Made by a program: the position numbers and the translations under genes. From Sulfurihydrogenibium subterraneum DSM 15120 (GTDB taxonomy: Bacteria; Aquificota; Aquificia; Aquificales; Hydrogenothermaceae), in NCBI RefSeq assembly GCF_000619805.1, contig NZ_JHUV01000012.1:62001-126000 (forward strand): a DNA stretch of 64,000 bases. The letters are read 5' to 3'. How positions within the stretch are numbered: the first letter of the stretch is position 1; each line of letters starts with the position of its first letter. This document shows, in pieces, positions 26,753-35,882 of this stretch. The notes under the pieces were generated by a model that was not told where the DNA came from, searched no databases, and worked only from the letters and a program-made list of their open reading frames with translations.

Positions 26753-27421
26753 ATGAGTGTTGTTATAGTAAGACTTTACATAAAATCAAAAGAAAAAACA
26801 GGGGAGATACTAAACACTTTAAAAAAGTATAATGTTGATACAAAAAATCTATTTACTTCCTTAAGGGAAAAAGGTTTTTTTGAATTTAAATTAGATGAAA
26901 ATTATTTTAAAGATATTGAAGAAACATTAAAAGATTATGTGGATATAGAGATTGTAGAGCACCTTCAAGAAAGTCCATACACTTTAGACAACGATTCAGT
27001 AAAGGAACCTACGGGATTATTAGCTCTACTGTTATTTGATGGATTTCTGGTTCTATCTATGATAAACATTATTACAAGGAAAATTGAACTTTATGATTTA
27101 ATAACTTCAATACCTGTACTTAATAAAGTTACCATATTTATTGTCGTACTTATCAAAATCTTTATCAGCTTTATTCTTATCTCAGGAGTTGTAAAACTTT
27201 CTAAGTCAAGCATATTAGGCAGACTATTAAACGTTAAAATTGAAAATGGTCAGAAAAATTTTATTTTTTTAATGTTGCTTTTAATAATAGCTTACTTTTT
27301 ATTAGAATCTTACATTTTTGCTTTTAAAATTTTTGGCTTGTTTTTGGTAATATTTATAATTATTGCGGTATACTCTGCTTATGAATATCTTGGAATTTCT
27401 TTAAAAAGAAAAGAAGGTTAA
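26753..27421 (+). CDS. membrane protein, unknown
   Basis: A 222-residue protein. The first 85 residues are soluble, with a possible beta-alpha-beta start (SVVIVRLYIKSKEKTGEILN) like an ACT or ferredoxin-like regulatory fold. Four hydrophobic helices follow (about 87-107, 128-150, 166-190, 190-212), and the tail is basic. ATG 26753 is chosen because GGAGGAGG lies just upstream; ATG 26732 precedes that site. The last 62 bases overlap the convergent flippase gene. No family recognised. Confidence 0.7.
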   Translation: MSVVIVRLYIKSKEKTGEILNTLKKYNVDTKNLFTSLREKGFFEFKLDENYFKDIEETLKDYVDIEIVEHLQESPYTLDNDSVKEPTGLLALLLFDGFLVLSMINIITRKIELYDLITSIPVLNKVTIFIVVLIKIFISFILISGVVKLSKSSILGRLLNVKIENGQKNFIFLMLLLIIAYFLLESYIFAFKIFGLFLVIFIIIAVYSAYEYLGISLKRKEG

Positions 27422-28553
27422 ACATTAAGAAAACTGCATTTATAATAAAAATATAAGCAAGGTATTCGTATACAGAATTAAATTTTATAAACGCAAAACC
27501 TAGATAATAAAATACTAAATGTACATACACGCTAAAAAAAGCTTTTTCCAATGAGATGTTTACATAGTAAATAACTAAATTCAATAAAAGAGGCAGTACA
27601 GAAAAGATATAAAACGGTAGTATCTCATAAGCTTGTAAATATTTTTCGCCAAAAAGTAATAAAAATACCTTTTCTCCGATAAAATATAGGATAATTTCTG
27701 TGATTCCAAAGCTAAAAATCATAAATATAAAAAAGTATAGAATATATTTAACTGCTTTTTCCTTTTTTTCTGAAATTTTTACAAATATAACAGAAAATAA
27801 AGTTAGAATAAACCATATATACGCTTTTCCTAAAATAGATGCTGAAGCGAAATATCCTGCTATTAAAGGCTCAAAAATTCTTTTTATAAAAATATCATCA
27901 GCATAAACAAAAAATCCCGATGGACTTACCAATAAAAAAGATTTTATCATCTTTTTAAAAGAGAGTTTCTTTATACTACCAAAAATATTTTTATTTAAGT
28001 ATACAAGGATAATTAAACTAAAAAGCATAGAAAAAACACTAGAAGATAAGGCTCCCTCTATTCCAAACCCTAAATTAACAAAAATTATTGCGAATAAAAG
28101 TCTTAAAGTAAGTTCTAATCCGTTTAAAAAAGAATATATATCAAATCTATTTTCAGCTTGTAAATAACCCTTTTCTACATTTTCTAAAAAAATCAAAAGA
28201 GAAACCAAGGCAATAATAATAATTGAAAATGTATTGCTAATATGTAAAAAATCTTTTAAATATGGAGATAATATAGAAAGTATGCTGAAAAATAAAAGTC
28301 CTGTTATAAAAGCTACTATCCTTAAAAATCTAAGAACTTCTAGTTTTTCTTCTTTATTTTCGAGAATATTTTTTATTGCAATTGTTGGATAAACACTAGA
28401 AATAAAACCCACAGTTAACATAAAGGAATATAAGACCATAAATTCTCCATAGCCTTCTGGACCAAGCCTCCTGCTTATTATAAAGTGAAATATATATCCA
28501 ATACCATTAATATAAAAAAACATTAATGACAAATAAAGAAAATGTTTAATCAT
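27360..28553 (-). CDS. polysaccharide flippase (Wzx/MurJ-MATE superfamily)
   Basis: A 397-residue protein with about 12 membrane helices and almost no long soluble loop. YIFHFIISRRLGPEGYGEFMVLYSF near the N-terminus, with the R-x-L-G-P-x-x-Y/F-G segment, is the hallmark of polysaccharide export flippases. It would move lipid-linked glycans across the inner membrane. It overlaps the upstream GT4 gene by four bases (ATGA), linking transport to synthesis. Its 3' end overlaps a convergent gene by 62 bases. Confidence 0.88.
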   Translation of the reverse strand: MIKHFLYLSLMFFYINGIGYIFHFIISRRLGPEGYGEFMVLYSFMLTVGFISSVYPTIAIKNILENKEEKLEVLRFLRIVAFITGLLFFSILSILSPYLKDFLHISNTFSIIIIALVSLLIFLENVEKGYLQAENRFDIYSFLNGLELTLRLLFAIIFVNLGFGIEGALSSSVFSMLFSLIILVYLNKNIFGSIKKLSFKKMIKSFLLVSPSGFFVYADDIFIKRIFEPLIAGYFASASILGKAYIWFILTLFSVIFVKISEKKEKAVKYILYFFIFMIFSFGITEIILYFIGEKVFLLLFGEKYLQAYEILPFYIFSVLPLLLNLVIYYVNISLEKAFFSVYVHLVFYYLGFAFIKFNSVYEYLAYIFIINAVFLMFNLLFFLKKFQDIHKQSIPQ

Positions 28554-29620
28554 TTATTTACAATCTCTAGTAAAAATTTTTCATATTCAATAGCAAGTTT
28601 ATCCCACGTAAATTTTTTTGCATATTCTATTGCTTTTTTTCCCATCTGTAAAATCATATCTTCATTTTTCCACAAAGTTATTATCTTATCTTTTAAATCT
28701 TCGGGATTTTCGCTTTTAAAACTTAATCCAAAACCATTTTCCACAACATAAGACAATTCTGGAATATCACTAACAATAAGAGGTTTTCCCATATTAGCAG
28801 CCTCCAAAGCAACAATACCCTGACCTTCGTATCTTGAAGGCATTACTATGAATTTTGAGTTTTTTATAAAATTAACCTTTTCTTGATCATTTAAAAATCC
28901 CAGGATTTCAATCTTGTTATTTAATTCTTGTACATTTATTAAATTTTTAAGTTTTGACTCATCTTTTCCTTTACCTGCTATTTTGAGAGGAAATTCTATA
29001 TTTTGAAAAGCTTTTAGCAATACATCTAAACCTTTGTTAAATATATCTATTCTTCCAATGAAACCTATATAGCTTCCCAGCCTTACATATTCTTCCAATA
29101 ACTTTTCATTGATCCCATTAGGAATAACCTTCCCTTCTACGTTAAACTTGCGAATTGAAGTTTCGGAAACGCACATAATACTTTTATAGATACGAGGGTA
29201 AAAATTTTCTATTAAATAAAAAGGTAATCCAAACAAGCCATATCTTTTTAGAATTTGCTTACCTTCTTTGTGATGTAATTGTAATACCGTTTTCTTGATA
29301 AATAAAAAAGAGAAAATTGGATTCCATGGTGCAAAATCTTCAATTACTATATCGTATTCTTTAGCGTGATTCTTTAAATATTTTATAGATTCAAATGCAT
29401 AAGAAAAAACACTTAATTTATAACTTTTATCAGTTCCTAAAAATTTAAACTTTAAATCCCCTTCCGAATAATCTTTAGCACTTGGATATTTACCTGATAT
29501 TACGGTTATATCATGACCTTTTTCTGCTAATCTTTTGTTAAGTTCATAACATCTTACAGCTCCACCACCACCAACCCAGGGATTGTTTATATGGTCGTAT
29601 ATAAGATGAAGGATTTTCAT
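28550..29620 (-). CDS. glycosyltransferase family 4
   Basis: A 356-residue GT-B enzyme. The N-terminal domain begins ILHLIYDHINNPWVGGGGAVRCYELNK-like, with the glycine-rich acceptor loop; the C-terminal domain has GFIGRIDIFNKGLDVLL and PSRYEGQGIVALEAANMGKP, the E-x7-E motif of retaining family 4 enzymes. It is coupled to the flippase by an ATGA overlap. The sugar donor cannot be deduced. It probably adds a residue to the glycan that the flippase exports. Confidence 0.85.
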   Translation of the reverse strand: MKILHLIYDHINNPWVGGGGAVRCYELNKRLAEKGHDITVISGKYPSAKDYSEGDLKFKFLGTDKSYKLSVFSYAFESIKYLKNHAKEYDIVIEDFAPWNPIFSFLFIKKTVLQLHHKEGKQILKRYGLFGLPFYLIENFYPRIYKSIMCVSETSIRKFNVEGKVIPNGINEKLLEEYVRLGSYIGFIGRIDIFNKGLDVLLKAFQNIEFPLKIAGKGKDESKLKNLINVQELNNKIEILGFLNDQEKVNFIKNSKFIVMPSRYEGQGIVALEAANMGKPLIVSDIPELSYVVENGFGLSFKSENPEDLKDKIITLWKNEDMILQMGKKAIEYAKKFTWDKLAIEYEKFLLEIVNK

Positions 29621-29634
29621 CTTTATTTCTTCAT

Positions 29635-29795
29635 ATTTGTCTAATAAACCTTAAAGACTCTGTCTGATACCAGTATACCACTTTGTCTTTAGTCCTAGCA
29701 CTCACCTATCATACCTCTTTTATAAGCCCCTGATTATACTTCTCCACTTCCAGCTCATTAGAATATTATATACTTATAGGGCATATTAGACAAAT
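29635..29795. mobile_element. small inverted-repeat element (MITE-like), about 161 bp
   Basis: ATTTGTCTAATA at 29635-29646 is repeated in exact inverted form at 29784-29795, framing about 137 bases without a reading frame that continues. On the minus strand the interior gives short broken frames in all three phases, as in a decayed transposon. No target duplication is evident. The right end touches the stop codon of the CDP-alcohol transferase gene. The parent family is unknown. Confidence 0.6.
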
Positions 29796-30463
29796 TATTT
29801 TTTTCTAAACATTACTACTTTTAGAATTATAGAAGTAATAATTTCTGCGAAATAAAAAAGGGAAACAACAAAATAAAAATAAGGGTTCTTTATGTTTAAA
29901 ATGCCAAACAAAGTAAATAAAATCAATCCAAAATCTGATTGTAGAGGAACCAGTATATATCTATTGGAGGAAAACGAATGAGACAAGGCTTTTTTATTCA
30001 TTTCCCTTGTCAAATAACCTAAAAAAGCATCTAAAATTGAAGTGTACGGAAAGAGAACAGCAAGTGTAAAGGAAATTATACTTTTTGTTTCTTCATACAA
30101 ACTCCAGGAAATAGATATAGAAATAAAAAACACTCCTAATACATCAAATGCCACATCCAAGAATTCTCCATATTTTGATGATATTTTTTTAAGTCTAGCA
30201 ACTGTTCCATCAACTCCATCTAATATATAAAATAATAGGTATAAAATACCTCCTATGATAAAATTGTTCATATAAAACATCAAAGCAGAAGATATAACTA
30301 TAAAAAAGTTTATAAAAGTAATTGTATTAGGTGTTAATGAAGTATAGTTTGCAAGCCACAAAGCAATATTTGTATAGACTTTTTCGAAAAAAGTTATTGC
30401 TATCCAGGATTCTTTGTCTTTTAACGCTTTTTTTAAATCTTCTTTTGTGTATTTGGTCCTCAT
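29795..30463 (-). CDS. CDP-alcohol phosphatidyltransferase
   Basis: A 222-residue membrane enzyme with about six helices. The family active site D-G-x2-D-G-x-x-A-R-x8-G-x3-D-x3-D is complete in DGVDGTVARLKK followed by SKYGEFLDVAFD. These enzymes displace CMP from a CDP-linked donor using an alcohol acceptor and make phospholipids or related compounds. The sequence does not show whether the donor is CDP-diacylglycerol or a CDP-linked head group. It starts three bases after the methyltransferase gene and lies near a cytidylyltransferase fusion, which suggests a CDP-head-group donor; this is inference. Confidence 0.9.
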   Translation of the reverse strand: MRTKYTKEDLKKALKDKESWIAITFFEKVYTNIALWLANYTSLTPNTITFINFFIVISSALMFYMNNFIIGGILYLLFYILDGVDGTVARLKKISSKYGEFLDVAFDVLGVFFISISISWSLYEETKSIISFTLAVLFPYTSILDAFLGYLTREMNKKALSHSFSSNRYILVPLQSDFGLILFTLFGILNIKNPYFYFVVSLFYFAEIITSIILKVVMFRKK

Positions 30464-30465
30464 CT

Positions 30466-31182
30466 TTATTTCCTCTTCAAATAAACAGAAAATCTAAACA
30501 GGCTATTTGGGTAGTTTATGTCATGTAAGTCAAATATTTCAATATGGTACTTGCTTTTGAAAAAATTCAGGAAAAACCTCCTGTCATAATATAAATGATG
30601 TAAGTTCTTATATAGTTCATTATATTTTTCTTCCCCAATTAAGCTTTTACGAAATGTTTCGTGTGCTACCTTTTTATTTATATCAGGAATATCGGATATT
30701 ATTATCTCCCCGTTATATTTTAAAATTCTGTCAAATTCATTTAAAACTTTAATTGCATATTGAATATTTTCAAAATATAAAAATACACTATAGCAAAAAA
30801 TTTTATCTACAGAATAATTTTGTAAAGGTATATAAGCAAGCTCCGAATTTAAAAGAGTTAAACTGTTGCTGTAATAAGGATTGTGTTTGAAAGCTTCTAA
30901 AAGAGATAAAGAGTAATCTATACCAATATAATTTTTAAATTTAATTTTTTGATGTTTTAAAAACCATAAAAAAGCACCGGCTCCACAACCCGCATCTAAA
31001 ATTATATCTTCAGGTTTAAAATGGAAATATTTTGTAACATCTTTGATCCTTTTTATAAAGATTTTAGCAAAATCTCCAGCAAATCTAGTGTCATAGCCGT
31101 TAAGTTTTAATATATCTTCTAGTTCTAATATATCTTTTTCAGTTTTTTTACTATTCCATATTCTCTTCCATTCATTTTTCAA
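30466..31182 (-). CDS. class I SAM-dependent methyltransferase
   Basis: A 238-residue Rossmann-fold methyltransferase. Motif I is ILDAGCGAGAFLWFL near residue 75, followed by NYIGIDYSLSLLEAF (acidic residue for SAM ribose) and a motif IV region with VDKIFCYSVFLYFEN. The start is TTG with GGGAGG eight bases upstream; those bases lie just outside the insertion element remnant. It sits directly before the CDP-alcohol transferase. An N-methyltransferase acting on phosphoethanolamine or an aminolipid is possible, but a sugar methyltransferase in a glycan cluster is equally allowed. Confidence 0.85.
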   Translation of the reverse strand: MKNEWKRIWNSKKTEKDILELEDILKLNGYDTRFAGDFAKIFIKRIKDVTKYFHFKPEDIILDAGCGAGAFLWFLKHQKIKFKNYIGIDYSLSLLEAFKHNPYYSNSLTLLNSELAYIPLQNYSVDKIFCYSVFLYFENIQYAIKVLNEFDRILKYNGEIIISDIPDINKKVAHETFRKSLIGEEKYNELYKNLHHLYYDRRFFLNFFKSKYHIEIFDLHDINYPNSLFRFSVYLKRK

Positions 31183-31202
31183 AGCTTTTTCCTCCCAGAA
31201 GC

Positions 31203-31692
31203 GTGAACACCCACACCTAAAAAAATTTTATCACATTTTATTAACTATTTCTGCAGGAGTTTTATATCCTAAAGTGCAGTCTTATAGGTATGCTGATATT
31301 TTCTCTTTACTCCATGTAGGATTTTCTTTCCTAATTTTTATTGCTTCTTCCTTGTATTTGTTTCTTACGGTTGGTTTTTTTGTGTTTATTTGGGTTTTAA
31401 GGTTTGTCGTAAAGACCTTCAAGTCCAACTTTTTCATATCTTTTTGGCTACTAATAGAATGTGTTTCTTGATATTCCGAAGTATCTATAGGTTTTTCAGA
31501 TGTTTTTGGTTTTTGGGTAATGGTCTTTCCATTTAAACCTTGTTTTAGCTTCTCTTGTTAGTGGGACATCTTTTATTTTGTTTGATAGTTTTTTGTGGAA
31601 GAGTTTTGTTATATACATAAGAGCTCCTATAATACCTTTCATTTTACCTACCTCCTGTTTAGTAAATTTATTTTACAGGGGTAGGTGTTCAC
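31203..31692 (-). mobile_element. remnant of an IS481-like insertion sequence, 490 bp, internally deleted
   Basis: The element is bounded by imperfect 17-base inverted repeats: GTGAACACCCACACCTA at 31203-31219, and on the other strand GTGAACACCTACCCCTG ending at 31692 (14 of 17 match). Inside is a broken transposase reading on the minus strand. No target duplication is obvious. At under half the size of a complete element it is non-autonomous. It splits the methyltransferase/CDP-alcohol transferase pair from the cytidylyltransferase fusion gene. Confidence 0.8.
31231..31642 (-). pseudogene. decayed transposase, helix-turn-helix part and extreme C-terminus only
   Basis: From ATG 31642 (GGAGGTAGG site upstream) the frames encode LTREAKTRFKWKDHYPKTKN, YRYFGISRNTFY and EKVGLEGLYDKP, the helix-turn-helix start of IS481-type and related integrase-core transposases, but with stop codons and frame changes. 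Then ENPTWSKEKISAYL and the tail LGYKTPAEIVNKM appear. The DDE catalytic core between them is gone. The gene is certainly inactive. Confidence 0.8.
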
Positions 31693-31705
31693 TGTCTATA
31701 TGAAC

Positions 31706-33523
31706 TTATATATGCAGTATTCTCCTTAGTTCTTCGTAAAAATAGTAATTTTCTTCTTTTTTTCGAACAGCTACTCGAAAATAACTGGAATTTTCTTTTT
31801 TATTTTTACTTGTTATTTTTGACGTAACATCCTTTATAAAAATATTTTTTTCTAGCATTTTTACTGCTATATCTGTAGCGTTTAAATTAGGGTGTTCTAT
31901 TTTTAGAAGAAAAAAATTTGCAAAACTTGGAAATATTTTAATATTTTTTAAGTTTTTCAAATTTTCTATGAATTTTTCTCTTTCGCTTTGAATCTTTCTT
32001 AGAGAATATACATATAATTTTTTATATTTTGGAAATTCTTCGAGAAATTTTTCTGCAAAACTATTTATATTCCAAATGGGTAAATGATTTCTTATTTCTT
32101 CTAAAATTTTTTTATTTTTAGTTATTATTACACCTAATCTTAAACCTGGAATTCCCAGAGATTTTCCAAGACTTTTCAAAATTATTAAATTATTAAAATT
32201 TTTAAATCTCTTTATCATAGAATATTCCTGTGGAGCAAAGTCAATAAACGATTCGTCTACTATTACAAATTTTAAATAATTCATAGATAAAAGTTCTTCT
32301 ATATATTCAGGGTGAATTATCTGACCTGTTGGATTGTTTGGATTTGATAAAATGAGAACATCTATACCTTTATCTTTTATAGCTCTTTTTAAATCATTAA
32401 TATCTATGGTAAAGTTATCTTCTGGAAAGGTATATATTAGTTCTTTATTATTGAATATTAAATATTCATCAAAGTTAGGGTAAAGTATACCAACCTTTTC
32501 TTTATTTAATAAAAAAGAAAGTATTTTAATTATTTGCGAACTTCCATTTGTTGTTAATAAATAATCCTGCTCTACATTCAAAACAGAAGACATTTTTGCA
32601 TCTACTATATTTTGAGTAGATGAATATCCTTGTATCAGATTAGGACTATACTCTTCAAGCTTATTTCTTAGTTTTATTGGTGGAAAATAGGGATTTGTTA
32701 CAAAATTAAAATCCAAAATATCAAAATCCCATAATCCGCCGAACATTTCACTTAATTTTTTGTATTTTTCTCTAGGAGATGAAAATAATACTTCAGCTTT
32801 ATAAATATCTGCTATAGTATCTATCTCAAACCATTTAATATCTTTAATAATATATGCTTTTAATTTAGAATAGTCCATTTGTGATAAAATTTTTAATATA
32901 ACTTCATAATATTTTGATAAAGGTTGTGTTTTAATATAAAGATCTAACATAGGTAAAAATTTTTTTCTCCAAAAATCAATAGAAAATTTATATACATTTA
33001 CCGTTTTATATAATTCTGCGTACTCATTATTATCCTTAAAATCGTATAATATAAAATCAATAACTTTACGATTAGTATCTATCTTTACTACTGTACCATC
33101 CATCCACTTTTCTTTCTTATCAACAACAACCAGATTTTTATCTCTACATGTGAGAATCTTGTTTATTAGTTGTGGTTCAAAAATTAAATCTGATTCGATT
33201 AAAATAAAATCTTTATATATTTCATTTCTTGCTAACCACAAGGAATAGATATTGTTTGTTTTATTGTATTTTTTATTTTCTACAAAAGTAATATTTTTGA
33301 ATTTATTGAAATAATACTTTTCTACGAAAGAAATTATATTATTCTTCTTATATCCTACAACAATTATTACATCTTGAATATTATTTTGCACTAAACTATC
33401 CAAAATATAGCTTAATATGGGTTTTCCGTTAATATCTATCATGGCTTTAGGTCTATTCTTTGTATAAGGTAATAATCTGTAACCTATTCCAGCAGCTAAA
33501 ATAACAGCTTGAAAATTACTCAA
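31706..33523 (-). CDS. fusion: LicC-like cytidylyltransferase plus CobD/HisC-like PLP enzyme
   Basis: A 605-residue two-domain protein. Residues about 1-240 are a nucleotidyltransferase: VILAAGIGYRLLPYTKNRPK, a NNIYSLWLAR segment and LIESDL resemble phosphocholine or phosphonate cytidylyltransferases (LicC, PntC). Residues about 250-605 are a fold-type I PLP enzyme with LSNPNNPTGQ, VDESFIDF and the Schiff-base lysine in SLGKSLGIPGLRLG. The IPGLRLG form is close to CobD, which decarboxylates threonine phosphate; HisC-type aminotransferases share the fold. One reading is that the second domain decarboxylates a phosphoamino acid, such as phosphoserine, to phosphoethanolamine, and the first activates it with CTP. 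A transaminase role is the main alternative. Three bases separate it from the GT2 gene. Confidence 0.85.
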   Translation of the reverse strand: MSNFQAVILAAGIGYRLLPYTKNRPKAMIDINGKPILSYILDSLVQNNIQDVIIVVGYKKNNIISFVEKYYFNKFKNITFVENKKYNKTNNIYSLWLARNEIYKDFILIESDLIFEPQLINKILTCRDKNLVVVDKKEKWMDGTVVKIDTNRKVIDFILYDFKDNNEYAELYKTVNVYKFSIDFWRKKFLPMLDLYIKTQPLSKYYEVILKILSQMDYSKLKAYIIKDIKWFEIDTIADIYKAEVLFSSPREKYKKLSEMFGGLWDFDILDFNFVTNPYFPPIKLRNKLEEYSPNLIQGYSSTQNIVDAKMSSVLNVEQDYLLTTNGSSQIIKILSFLLNKEKVGILYPNFDEYLIFNNKELIYTFPEDNFTIDINDLKRAIKDKGIDVLILSNPNNPTGQIIHPEYIEELLSMNYLKFVIVDESFIDFAPQEYSMIKRFKNFNNLIILKSLGKSLGIPGLRLGVIITKNKKILEEIRNHLPIWNINSFAEKFLEEFPKYKKLYVYSLRKIQSEREKFIENLKNLKNIKIFPSFANFFLLKIEHPNLNATDIAVKMLEKNIFIKDVTSKITSKNKKENSSYFRVAVRKKEENYYFYEELRRILHI

Positions 33524-33526
33524 TTA

Positions 33527-34231
33527 TTACCCTCCAAATTTTAGTCTCCATACTATTATAGCTGCTTCTAAGGCTATTTTTCTACTCATTTTTGATGAGC
33601 CTCCATTTCTTTCATAAAAAATAATAGGAATTTCTGTTATCTTACAGCCTTTTTTATATAGTTTGTAAACCATCTCTATTTGAAATGCATAACCATTTGA
33701 TTTAATTTTATTTAAATCTATTTTTTCTAAACATTCTTTTTTGTAGACTCTATATCCACTGGTAATATCCGAAAACTGTTTTAAACCTAAAATAGTTGTA
33801 GCATACCAGTTGCCAAATTTAGAAATAAGTAATCTTTTAAAATCCCATCCTACAACGCTAATAGTGTTATTTATATAACGAGACCCTATAACTACATCAT
33901 AACCTTCTTTTAACTTTTCTATAAATCGTGGTATATCTTTTGGGTCGTGAGATAAATCTGCATCCATTTCAAAAAAAATATCATAACCTTTTTCAATACC
34001 CCATTTAAAGCCTGCAGTATATGCCGTTCCTAATCCCATTTTATAAGGGCGTTGTATTAAAAAAACTTTATTATCAAATTCAGGATATGTTTTAACGATT
34101 TCTGAAGTTCCATCTTGAGAGTTATCATCTACAACTAAAACGTGAATATTTTCAAAGTTCATTAAACTATCTAAAACTTTCTTTATATTTTCTACTTCAT
34201 TGTATGTTGGTAAGATTACTAATCCTTTCAC
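33527..34231 (-). CDS. glycosyltransferase family 2, polyprenol-phosphate mannose synthase type
   Basis: A 234-residue GT-A enzyme like the catalytic domain of DPM1. LPTYNEVENIKKVLDSL, VVDDNSQDGT and EMDADLSHDP (metal-binding DAD) are present, followed by VIGSRYI and GYAFQIEMVYKLYKKG. It lacks C-terminal membrane helices. It would transfer a sugar from a nucleotide donor to polyprenyl phosphate. The GTG start overlaps the GT9 stop as GTGA. A DUF2723 glycosyltransferase using such lipid-linked sugars lies in the same operon, a likely partner. Confidence 0.88.
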   Translation of the reverse strand: MKGLVILPTYNEVENIKKVLDSLMNFENIHVLVVDDNSQDGTSEIVKTYPEFDNKVFLIQRPYKMGLGTAYTAGFKWGIEKGYDIFFEMDADLSHDPKDIPRFIEKLKEGYDVVIGSRYINNTISVVGWDFKRLLISKFGNWYATTILGLKQFSDITSGYRVYKKECLEKIDLNKIKSNGYAFQIEMVYKLYKKGCKITEIPIIFYERNGGSSKMSRKIALEAAIIVWRLKFGG

Positions 34232-35268
34232 GACAAAAGTTCCTCTACAGCTTTTATAACTTTATTAGGTTTAATATCATTTAAGCATTTATATTTTTCA
34301 TCTATTTTACATTCAAGTGGTTTAGGGGAATAATAAAAGCAAGGAGAACATGGTAAATCCATTTTTATAATTTTATGTTTAACATTCCAAGGCTTTACCC
34401 AAACAGGATTTGTTGGTCCAAATATTCCAATTACAGATATGTTTATCGCACCTGCCAGATGCATTAACCCAGAATCGTTAGATATAAATAAGTCTAAATG
34501 TTTCATAATACTTGCAACTTCTCTGATAGATTTATCAGCAACTAAGACTACGTTATTGAATTTCGCATTTTCTTTGATAAAAAGATTCTCTTCCATTTCT
34601 TCTTCTGTTCCAAAAAGAAAAAAAGTAAAGTCTTTAAAATAATTGATAACTTCTAAAAAGTATTCTTTTCTCCATCTTTTACTTTGGTGGTTCTTAAAAC
34701 TACTACTTCCAGTATGGATACCAACTTTTATAGAGTTATCGTATGAAGTTAAGAATTCTCTTCCTATATTTATTTCTTCTTCAGTTAGATAAATTTTTAA
34801 ATTGGGAATGTTTTCTTTATAGTTTATTCCTAAAAGGGTTAGTATTCTTATATTTTCTTCTACACAGTGCAGATTATAATCTTCTTCAATTTTCTTGGTT
34901 AATAAAAAATCAAAGATTAAAAACTTACTATTTTTGTACTTAAAACCAAGTCTGTTTTTGGAAAATGTAAGAAAAGAGAAAATGTTGTAATCTCTTCTGT
35001 TTGATGGAAAGAAATTTATGGTAATATCATATTTAAAAGAAACATTTTTCAGAATATAGAGTATAGACTGGATTTTACTTTTATTTAGTAGTGGATAATA
35101 GATTACTTTATCTATGTTTGGGTTGTTTTGATAAATCTCCATTATAGGTTTTTTAATTGTAAAGACATCTATTATCCAATCTGGTTTATTAGCCTTCAAA
35201 ACTTCTAAGGCAGGAGTAGTCATTAAAGCATCTCCTATCCCAAACTGAGGAGCTATTAATACCTTCAT
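34228..35268 (-). CDS. glycosyltransferase family 9 (heptosyltransferase type)
   Basis: A 346-residue GT-B enzyme. VLIAPQFGIGDALMTTPALEVLK at the start and NDSGLMHLAGAINISVIGIFGPTNP near the C-terminus are family 9 signatures, with GIHTGSSSFKNHQSKRW before the donor site. A Cys-rich end (PCSPCFYY, CKIDEKYKCL) is common in this family. Members add heptose or similar sugars to the LPS core. ATG 35268 overlaps the preceding stop as ATGA and is chosen over the longer frame. Confidence 0.88.
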   Translation of the reverse strand: MKVLIAPQFGIGDALMTTPALEVLKANKPDWIIDVFTIKKPIMEIYQNNPNIDKVIYYPLLNKSKIQSILYILKNVSFKYDITINFFPSNRRDYNIFSFLTFSKNRLGFKYKNSKFLIFDFLLTKKIEEDYNLHCVEENIRILTLLGINYKENIPNLKIYLTEEEINIGREFLTSYDNSIKVGIHTGSSSFKNHQSKRWRKEYFLEVINYFKDFTFFLFGTEEEMEENLFIKENAKFNNVVLVADKSIREVASIMKHLDLFISNDSGLMHLAGAINISVIGIFGPTNPVWVKPWNVKHKIIKMDLPCSPCFYYSPKPLECKIDEKYKCLNDIKPNKVIKAVEELLS

Positions 35269-35882
35269 GCCATATACAACCCTAAAATCCACAAACTAAA
35301 AAAAGATACAAAAGCTAACAATCCCCAAAATATATTAAAGACATTTATGTTTTCACCTAATCCTTTCCAGATTAAAAATATTACAGATGAAATCCAACCT
35401 ATTAATGAAAAGCCGACGATAAAACTCCAAAAATATGATGGTGTGTTATCATACATTAATAATTTGATTTGATTCTTATAAAGTGTATTAAAGTCAGATT
35501 CTTTGTAATCATTAAATTCCCAACTTATCATTTCTTTGGCTCTAAGGGAAGCTATAATTGGAATAATTTCATCTAAAATTTCTTTATATGGTTGATATAT
35601 GCTTTTTATTTGTATAAGACTAGTTCGTAAAGTTTCGTAGCAGTATAGTTTTTCATCGTTGATAGAAAAATTTTGGCATTCCTTTTTTAATTCATCAACA
35701 GCAATCTTATTAAATGGACTAAAGGGTACACAGAACAGAATTACTTTTTCCAATGATTTAACTTTTTCTAAACCTTTTTGGTCTTTTGCTATTGTAATGA
35801 ATTTATATTGTGTATATAAACTCCTTAATAGTAATGAGATTAAAACCATTATAACTATAAATAGTACAACTTTTTTATTCAT
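35265..35882 (-). CDS. membrane protein with three helices, unknown
   Basis: A 205-residue protein: one N-terminal helix (about 4-22), a periplasmic or cytoplasmic domain of about 110 residues with four Cys (FCVP, KKECQ, LYCY), and two C-terminal helices (about 150-172, 180-203). No family recognised. It lies between DUF2723 and GT9 with overlaps or single-base spacing on both sides, so it is probably part of the glycan pathway, perhaps as an accessory subunit. Confidence 0.7.
   Translation of the reverse strand: MNKKVVLFIVIMVLISLLLRSLYTQYKFITIAKDQKGLEKVKSLEKVILFCVPFSPFNKIAVDELKKECQNFSINDEKLYCYETLRTSLIQIKSIYQPYKEILDEIIPIIASLRAKEMISWEFNDYKESDFNTLYKNQIKLLMYDNTPSYFWSFIVGFSLIGWISSVIFLIWKGLGENINVFNIFWGLLAFVSFFSLWILGLYMA

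Follow-up and report, generated by a model that had tools for sequence, protein, structure and literature searches.

A fused cytidylyltransferase and decarboxylase-like enzyme in Sulfurihydrogenibium subterraneum as a candidate de novo CDP-ethanolamine module for surface decoration

For phosphoethanolamine-type head-groups most bacteria draw on membrane lipids or environmental choline and, to our knowledge, bacterial phosphorylcholine decoration of the known kinds needs either choline uptake (the Lic-1 pathway) or phosphatidylcholine. A three-gene cassette in Sulfurihydrogenibium subterraneum DSM 15120 raises the question of whether such a head-group can be made and activated from phosphoserine instead; it lies in a 64,000-nucleotide stretch of contig NZ_JHUV01000012.1 (positions 62,001 to 126,000, hereafter the window). 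Our comparative analysis makes it likely that the cassette encodes a de novo cytidine diphosphate (CDP)-ethanolamine module serving a surface glycan or lipid, where we infer every reaction, the acceptor and any methylation. If true, a self-contained phosphoserine route would explain such head-groups in organisms that have neither phosphatidylserine decarboxylase nor choline, and, if the head-group is methylated as well, would permit a decoration of the phosphocholine type that needs neither choline uptake nor phosphatidylethanolamine. Species displaying phosphorylcholine without any recognised pathway were noted in a 2023 survey (PMC10434233).

The original prediction had recognised three genes on one strand, with the methyltransferase about 520 bases downstream of the fusion, and this layout holds (the gap is 523 bp):

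31706-33523, minus strand: fusion protein of 605 amino acids (aa), a cytidylyltransferase plus a pyridoxal phosphate (PLP) decarboxylase-like enzyme (open reading frame, Pfam, NCBIfam, fold search)
32774-33523, minus strand: domain 1 of the fusion (residues 1-250), LicC/PntC-like cytidine triphosphate (CTP):phospho-aminoalcohol cytidylyltransferase (sequence and fold matches)
31706-32761, minus strand: domain 2 of the fusion (about residues 255-605), SMUL_1544/CobD-like PLP domain (tree, residues, fold)
30466-31182, minus strand: class I S-adenosylmethionine methyltransferase of 238 aa, from a small family with the N-terminus N-x-W-K-x-I-W-N (Pfam, neighbourhoods)
29795-30463, minus strand: CDP-alcohol (CDP-OH) phosphotransferase of 222 aa with a complete D82..D107 motif (Pfam, motif, structure relatives)

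All four Pfam matches exceed the curated cut-offs (NTP_transferase, 42.7 bits, and Aminotran_1_2, 107.9 bits, in the fusion; Methyltransf_11, 45.8 bits; CDP-OH_P_transf, 53.6 bits). Pfam domains, fold and sequence agree on a LicC/PntC-like cytidylyltransferase joined to a CobD-like PLP enzyme, as had been proposed, and the two segments cited for it, NNIYSLWLAR and the lysine region SLGKSLGIPGLRLG, are residues 90-99 and 451-464. Because relatives with 36-44% identity to the window protein across nearly its full length occur in several phyla, we regard the 605-residue protein as a genuine gene fusion. Its distribution is sporadic: a full-length fusion is present in 2 of 41 genomes of the family (the window's own and G011) and in 8 of 136 genomes of the phylum Aquificota, a count in which the fusion of genome G836 is broken by a contig end and the match in G032 is a HisC.

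In the proposed order of reactions, the PLP domain would decarboxylate O-phospho-L-serine to phosphoethanolamine, the fused cytidylyltransferase would convert phosphoethanolamine and CTP into CDP-ethanolamine, the CDP-alcohol phosphotransferase would pass the phosphoethanolamine unit to a glycan or glycolipid from the surrounding glycosyltransferase and flippase genes, and the methyltransferase would most likely N-methylate the amine once the head-group has been activated or transferred. This route from phosphoserine through phosphoethanolamine and CDP-ethanolamine to a glycan or lipid, put forward in the original prediction, appears well backed by indirect evidence; what changes is the place of methylation, which, if real, would probably come after activation. 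Independence of phosphatidylserine decarboxylase and of exogenous choline, also claimed there, is in line with the genome searches at the sensitivity they reached: no phosphatidylserine decarboxylase was found in the 41 family genomes (control genomes gave matches in the same search), and no choline kinase (LicA) in the window's genome (1.61 Mb, 99.95% complete). LicD, the transferase of the Lic-1 phosphorylcholine pathway (LicA-LicD), likewise gave no match in that genome. The cassette resembles Lic-1 in coupling cytidylyl activation to surface-glycan transfer, and LicD adjoins related fusions; it differs in that Lic-1 needs choline uptake and choline kinase and in that the window's transferase is of the CDP-OH type.

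The decarboxylation step depends on the identity of the PLP domain (K454, the Schiff-base lysine, with D423, F426, W484, R462 and R583). Its closest solved relatives by sequence are 6oux, then 3ftb and CobD 1lc5. A fold search with the fusion model (mean pLDDT 72.7, built from four sequences) placed the PntC-AEPT fusion, which matches both domains, first, followed by 6oux, 3ftb and CobD, with HisC structures lower, and 6oux, whose structure title reads 'SMUL_1544, a decarboxylase', is the best fold match of the domain within its own class. In an unrooted tree of 53 PLP domains (quick search, with SH-aLRT as the sole support measure), 17 fusions, a SMUL_1544 clade of seven rows (PDB 6oux included) and two rhizobial rows formed one group, and 20 HisC proteins another (SH-aLRT 99 each), so that the clustering with histidinol-phosphate transaminases that would have spoken against the original assignment did not appear. 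For one locus (L151) the tree distance to the 6oux sequence is zero. Kinship is to SMUL_1544 and not to CobD proper, since the CobD-type rows (L111 and 3ftb) sit on the HisC side of the tree. Two residues follow a similar division: the position of F426 (D-E-[AS]-F motif) is Phe in all 26 fusion, SMUL_1544-type and rhizobial rows and in both CobD-type rows, and Tyr in 20/20 HisC proteins, while that of W484 (W-x-[IV]-N motif) is Trp in the former and Phe in 20/20 HisC.

The NCBIfam models place the domain in neither of the two annotated families. The CobD model TIGR01140 scores highest on the fusion (172.1 bits) and the HisC model TIGR01141 follows 17 bits behind (154.6 bits), whereas on the genome's own HisC the HisC model leads the CobD model by 159 bits. 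HisC identity was rejected on the score (cut-off 276.55), on F426 in place of the Tyr of DEAY, and on the separate clade; a CobD serving cobalamin synthesis was rejected on its score (cut-off 290.55) and on the wrong gene partners. A phosphothreonine decarboxylase of the CobD kind, with CDP-aminopropanol as the product, would account for the CobD model being the top match, but with a score so far under the cut-off and a norcobamide-linked protein, SMUL_1544, as the nearest characterised relative, we consider it quite improbable; the phosphoserine and phosphothreonine readings may differ in substrate preference alone. Keller et al. are said to have reported in 2016 that SMUL_1544 decarboxylates phosphoserine and that the norcobamide linker carries no methyl group. 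The SMUL_1544 gene adjoins CbiB within the norcobamide gene cluster (PMC7755780), and the protein 'governs norcobamide biosynthesis' according to a title cited in PMC6461909. By kinship with SMUL_1544, phosphoserine is probably the substrate of the window's PLP domain as well; by tree and fold SMUL_1544 (PDB 6OUX) is its nearest characterised relative, unlike the window fusion in being a stand-alone enzyme of norcobamide synthesis without a cytidylyltransferase. The proposed step has a further counterpart in Campylobacter jejuni Cj1436, reportedly a phosphoserine decarboxylase supplying phosphoethanolamine for the capsule, which is again stand-alone; some of the SMUL_1544-like tree rows may be kin of Cj1436.

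Among solved structures the cytidylyltransferase domain is closest to LicC (1jyk, 1.8e-18), followed by the PntC-AEPT fusion (6pd1, 1.9e-13), and the predicted structure superimposes on LicC (1jyk/1jyl) with TM-scores of 0.86-0.88. In the PntC of Tde1415 (Tde-PntC), Glu104 and Glu196 are positioned to contact the primary amine of aminoethylphosphonate (AEP), and LicC has Asp105 and Asp192 at those positions, leaving room for choline (PMC6697681). E110 of the fusion aligns with Tde E104 (its match to LicC D105 involves a one-residue shift from the ungapped HMMER output, anchored on the metal-binding Asp), and E207, the glutamate of YYE, aligns with LicC D192 and Tde E196. Thus, the kinship with LicC in fold and sequence does not extend to the Asp pair. 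E110 and E207 are invariant in 19/19 fusions, regardless of whether a methyltransferase gene lies next to them, and among these 19 we found no amine-contact residue separating methyltransferase-linked fusions from the others. Since the pocket is Glu/Glu (PntC-like) and not Asp/Asp in all fusions, CDP-ethanolamine is the likelier of the two products originally entertained, and CDP-choline, which the LicC-like pair would have suited, is the less likely; the enzyme probably activates the small primary amine phosphoethanolamine rather than phosphocholine. The PntC-like pocket also implies that methylation, if real, probably comes after activation. Nevertheless, specificity cannot be read from individual residues of the pocket, because Ari-PntC prefers AEP despite its LicC-like aromatic residues (PMC6697681).

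The third step falls to a phosphotransferase whose active site is complete, as had been read from the sequence: D82-xx-D85-G-xx-A-R90-x8-G99-xxx-D103-xxx-D107. Its nearest solved structures are AF2299 (4O6M) and the phosphotransferase domain of IPCT-DIPPS (4MND), the latter known to take a CDP-head-group donor, and this kinship suits, without proving, CDP-ethanolamine as the donor. Both relatives likewise couple a cytidylyltransferase to a CDP-alcohol phosphotransferase, and they differ from the cassette in using inositol phosphate chemistry and in having no PLP domain. The window's genome encodes five CDP-OH phosphotransferases, the one in the cassette included, and a search of plasmids with the latter gave no match. 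Elsewhere the neighbouring transferase varies: in the Aquificaceae-type family (f2) 6/6 fusions adjoin LicD, in both convergent and co-directional arrangements; Fusobacterium has LicD about 2 kb upstream of the fusion; in Gloeothece the gene order is fusion, methyltransferase, LicD; and a CDP-OH phosphotransferase lies directly 3' of the fusion in Rahnella, where it is annotated as such, and in Priestia, where sequence similarity identifies it. Because fusions neighbour LicD in some genomes and a CDP-OH phosphotransferase in others, the activation module is, on these neighbourhoods, the constant part and the transferase is exchanged by lineage. Within the family, LicD is present in 2 of 41 genomes, namely the fusion-bearing G011 and the PEP (phosphoenolpyruvate) mutase-bearing G013 (Fisher p 0.004); in G011, LicD and the fusion are on different contigs, both near contig ends.

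The methyltransferase stands together with the fusion in five other loci (Gloeothece, three further genomes and one viral contig), so the co-occurrence asked about originally, in the absence of the insertion element, holds for the fusion and methyltransferase as a pair, while the trio itself is not conserved. When 386 genomes from one phylum were searched with the Gloeothece relative, six proved to have the family: the full fusion is adjacent in three (L145, L143 and L144, with the order LicD-methyltransferase-fusion in L143) and a lone LicC/PntC-like cytidylyltransferase in two of Moorena type. Among plasmids, Gloeothece gave its sole full-length match. Relatives in three Moorena-type loci (L076:7499-7969, L081:7342-7812 and L146:8931-9401) have 157 codons each, apparently a shared truncation. 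N-methylation of the aminoalcohol is plausible from the gene neighbourhood alone, the guess being made because the activation step is what the methyltransferase is constantly partnered with. Its action on the glycan, with plain phosphoethanolamine being delivered, is a variant compatible with the first two steps that we regard as possible, somewhat short of probable: E110 and E207 are the same whether or not the methyltransferase is present, and no kinship of the window methyltransferase to phosphoethanolamine methyltransferases was found by single sequence or fold (a profile match to 5wp5, at 6.6e-8, is not the best one and spans the N-terminal/Rossmann part only). Yet the gene accompanies the fusion across both LicD and CDP-OH lineages and, in Moorena, adjoins a lone cytidylyltransferase.

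Grouping of the window's PLP domain (support 97) with Gloeothece, L145 and Pseudonocardia, apart from other Aquificota fusions, points to joint horizontal acquisition of fusion and methyltransferase; in Pseudonocardia the gene downstream of the fusion has no Pfam match. Phages may carry such a surface-modification module too, since a viral contig with a family B DNA polymerase (L180:3320-8359, IMG/VR 3300025009_000162) holds, in a span of about 5 kb, the methyltransferase, the fusion and, three genes further along, LicD. The most extended form of the proposal, a full de novo route leading from phosphoserine to surface glycans that bear a methylated aminoalcohol phosphate, with the methyltransferase acting at the level of CDP-ethanolamine or of the glycan and the module spread among bacteria and phages, is one that we hold tentatively and consider rather doubtful. 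A second viral contig (L179:3998-9205) carries a fusion, followed by a gene that no Pfam family matches and by a protein of 522 residues with an NTP transferase domain at its N-terminus.

The likely destination of the head-group is suggested by the genes on either side, and the cassette is itself interrupted:

33527-34231, minus strand: family 2 glycosyltransferase (GT2), polyprenyl-phosphate hexose synthase-like, upstream of the fusion (Pfam)
34228-35292, minus strand: heptosyltransferase-like family 9 glycosyltransferase (GT9) in the same gene run (Pfam)
28550-29620, minus strand: GT4-type glycosyltransferase, downstream (Pfam)
27360-28553, minus strand: Wzx-like flippase, downstream (Pfam)
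31203-31692, no strand: degraded insertion element bounded by 22-nt terminal inverted repeats, in the fusion-methyltransferase gap (repeat and frame analysis)

Given these neighbours and a TMEM260-like protein also found in the Pfam scan, we read the surroundings as a surface-glycan cluster. Packing is tight, with 3 bp between GT2 and the fusion and 2 bp between methyltransferase and phosphotransferase; the insertion relic makes up 490 bp of the gap between fusion and methyltransferase, which would shrink to 33 bp if it were removed. The relic's repeats are 82% complementary, it contains only broken transposase-like frames, and no second copy was found within the window. Such an insertion in mid-cassette, together with the occurrence of the fusion in so few family genomes, could mark a decaying remnant without current function, but with three intact reading frames bearing full active-site motifs and intact flanking genes this is very improbable.

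Several observations weigh against the proposed CDP-ethanolamine module. The relic may weaken expression of the genes downstream. CDP-OH phosphotransferases also include users of CDP-lipids, which is why CDP-ethanolamine is not proven as the donor. For the methyltransferase, neither the sequence nor a low-confidence model (pLDDT 64, built from two sequences) reveals more than generic class I similarity, and one of the six genomes with its family (L142, 5451-6161) has neither a fusion nor a LicC/PntC-like cytidylyltransferase in the 16 kb examined. In Helicobacter turcicus and a relative (L023:3998-10393 and L147:4779-11159) the fusion is clustered with PEP mutase and a phosphonopyruvate-decarboxylase-like thiamine pyrophosphate (TPP) gene, along with APS-kinase-like and formyltransferase-like genes and with no separate AEP transaminase among the genes listed nearby, and the PLP domain of these clusters might transaminate phosphonoacetaldehyde.

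These Helicobacter-type loci bear on the idea that the window's PLP domain, too, is a transaminase, analogous to the AEP transaminase of PntC-AEPT, whose product would be an amino-alcohol phosphate and whose starting compound would be a phospho- or phosphono-aldehyde (or ketone). The closest solved whole-protein architecture is indeed PntC-AEPT Tde1415 (PDB 6PD1/6PD2, PMC6697681), with the same order of cytidylyltransferase and PLP domain, the same amine-contacting Glu pair, and a single protein in which an aminoalkyl-phosph(on)ate is both formed and activated. That protein, however, has a class V AEP transaminase acting in phosphonate synthesis, whereas the window's PLP domain is class I/II and CobD-like, groups with SMUL_1544 off the HisC branch, and carries the CobD-type F426 and W484 in a genome where no phosphonate supply was found; a transaminase is, on balance, unlikely. 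PEP mutase was detected neither in the window's genome nor in any fusion-bearing genome among the 136 Aquificota searched, the one clear case, G013, having no full-length fusion, which speaks against home-made phosphonate in these genomes, and the phosphonate pathway was rejected on this ground. A phosphonate-tailoring (Pnt) cassette handling AEP would fit the PntC-like pocket and the related split genes beside PEP mutase in rhizobia, but is largely refuted by the missing mutase unless phosphonate is imported, and we hold it to be hardly credible. In the rhizobial plasmids (L104:7753-11737 and L105:2462-11718) an unfused PLP enzyme lies by PEP mutase, cytidylyltransferase and CDP-OH phosphotransferase genes, with no phosphonopyruvate-decarboxylase-like TPP enzyme in the annotated stretch, an arrangement that could suit decarboxylation of phosphonoalanine to AEP. 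As both the Helicobacter and rhizobial loci carry PEP mutase, the PLP family may use phospho- and phosphono-substrates in different hosts.

Overall, the parts of the proposed CDP-ethanolamine module are of known kinds (PntC-AEPT fusion, Lic-1, SMUL_1544). In the literature searched, most subscription journals being outside its scope, we found no prior description of a decarboxylase-type fusion, nor any report on phosphonoalanine decarboxylase or on serinol phosphate or L-serine phosphate in capsules. On Priestia and Rahnella plasmids (L102:4534-12638 and L103:8980-18623) the fusion occurs in apparent natural-product clusters, which also hold ATP-grasp enzymes, a DXR homologue and a HAD-IIIC phosphatase.

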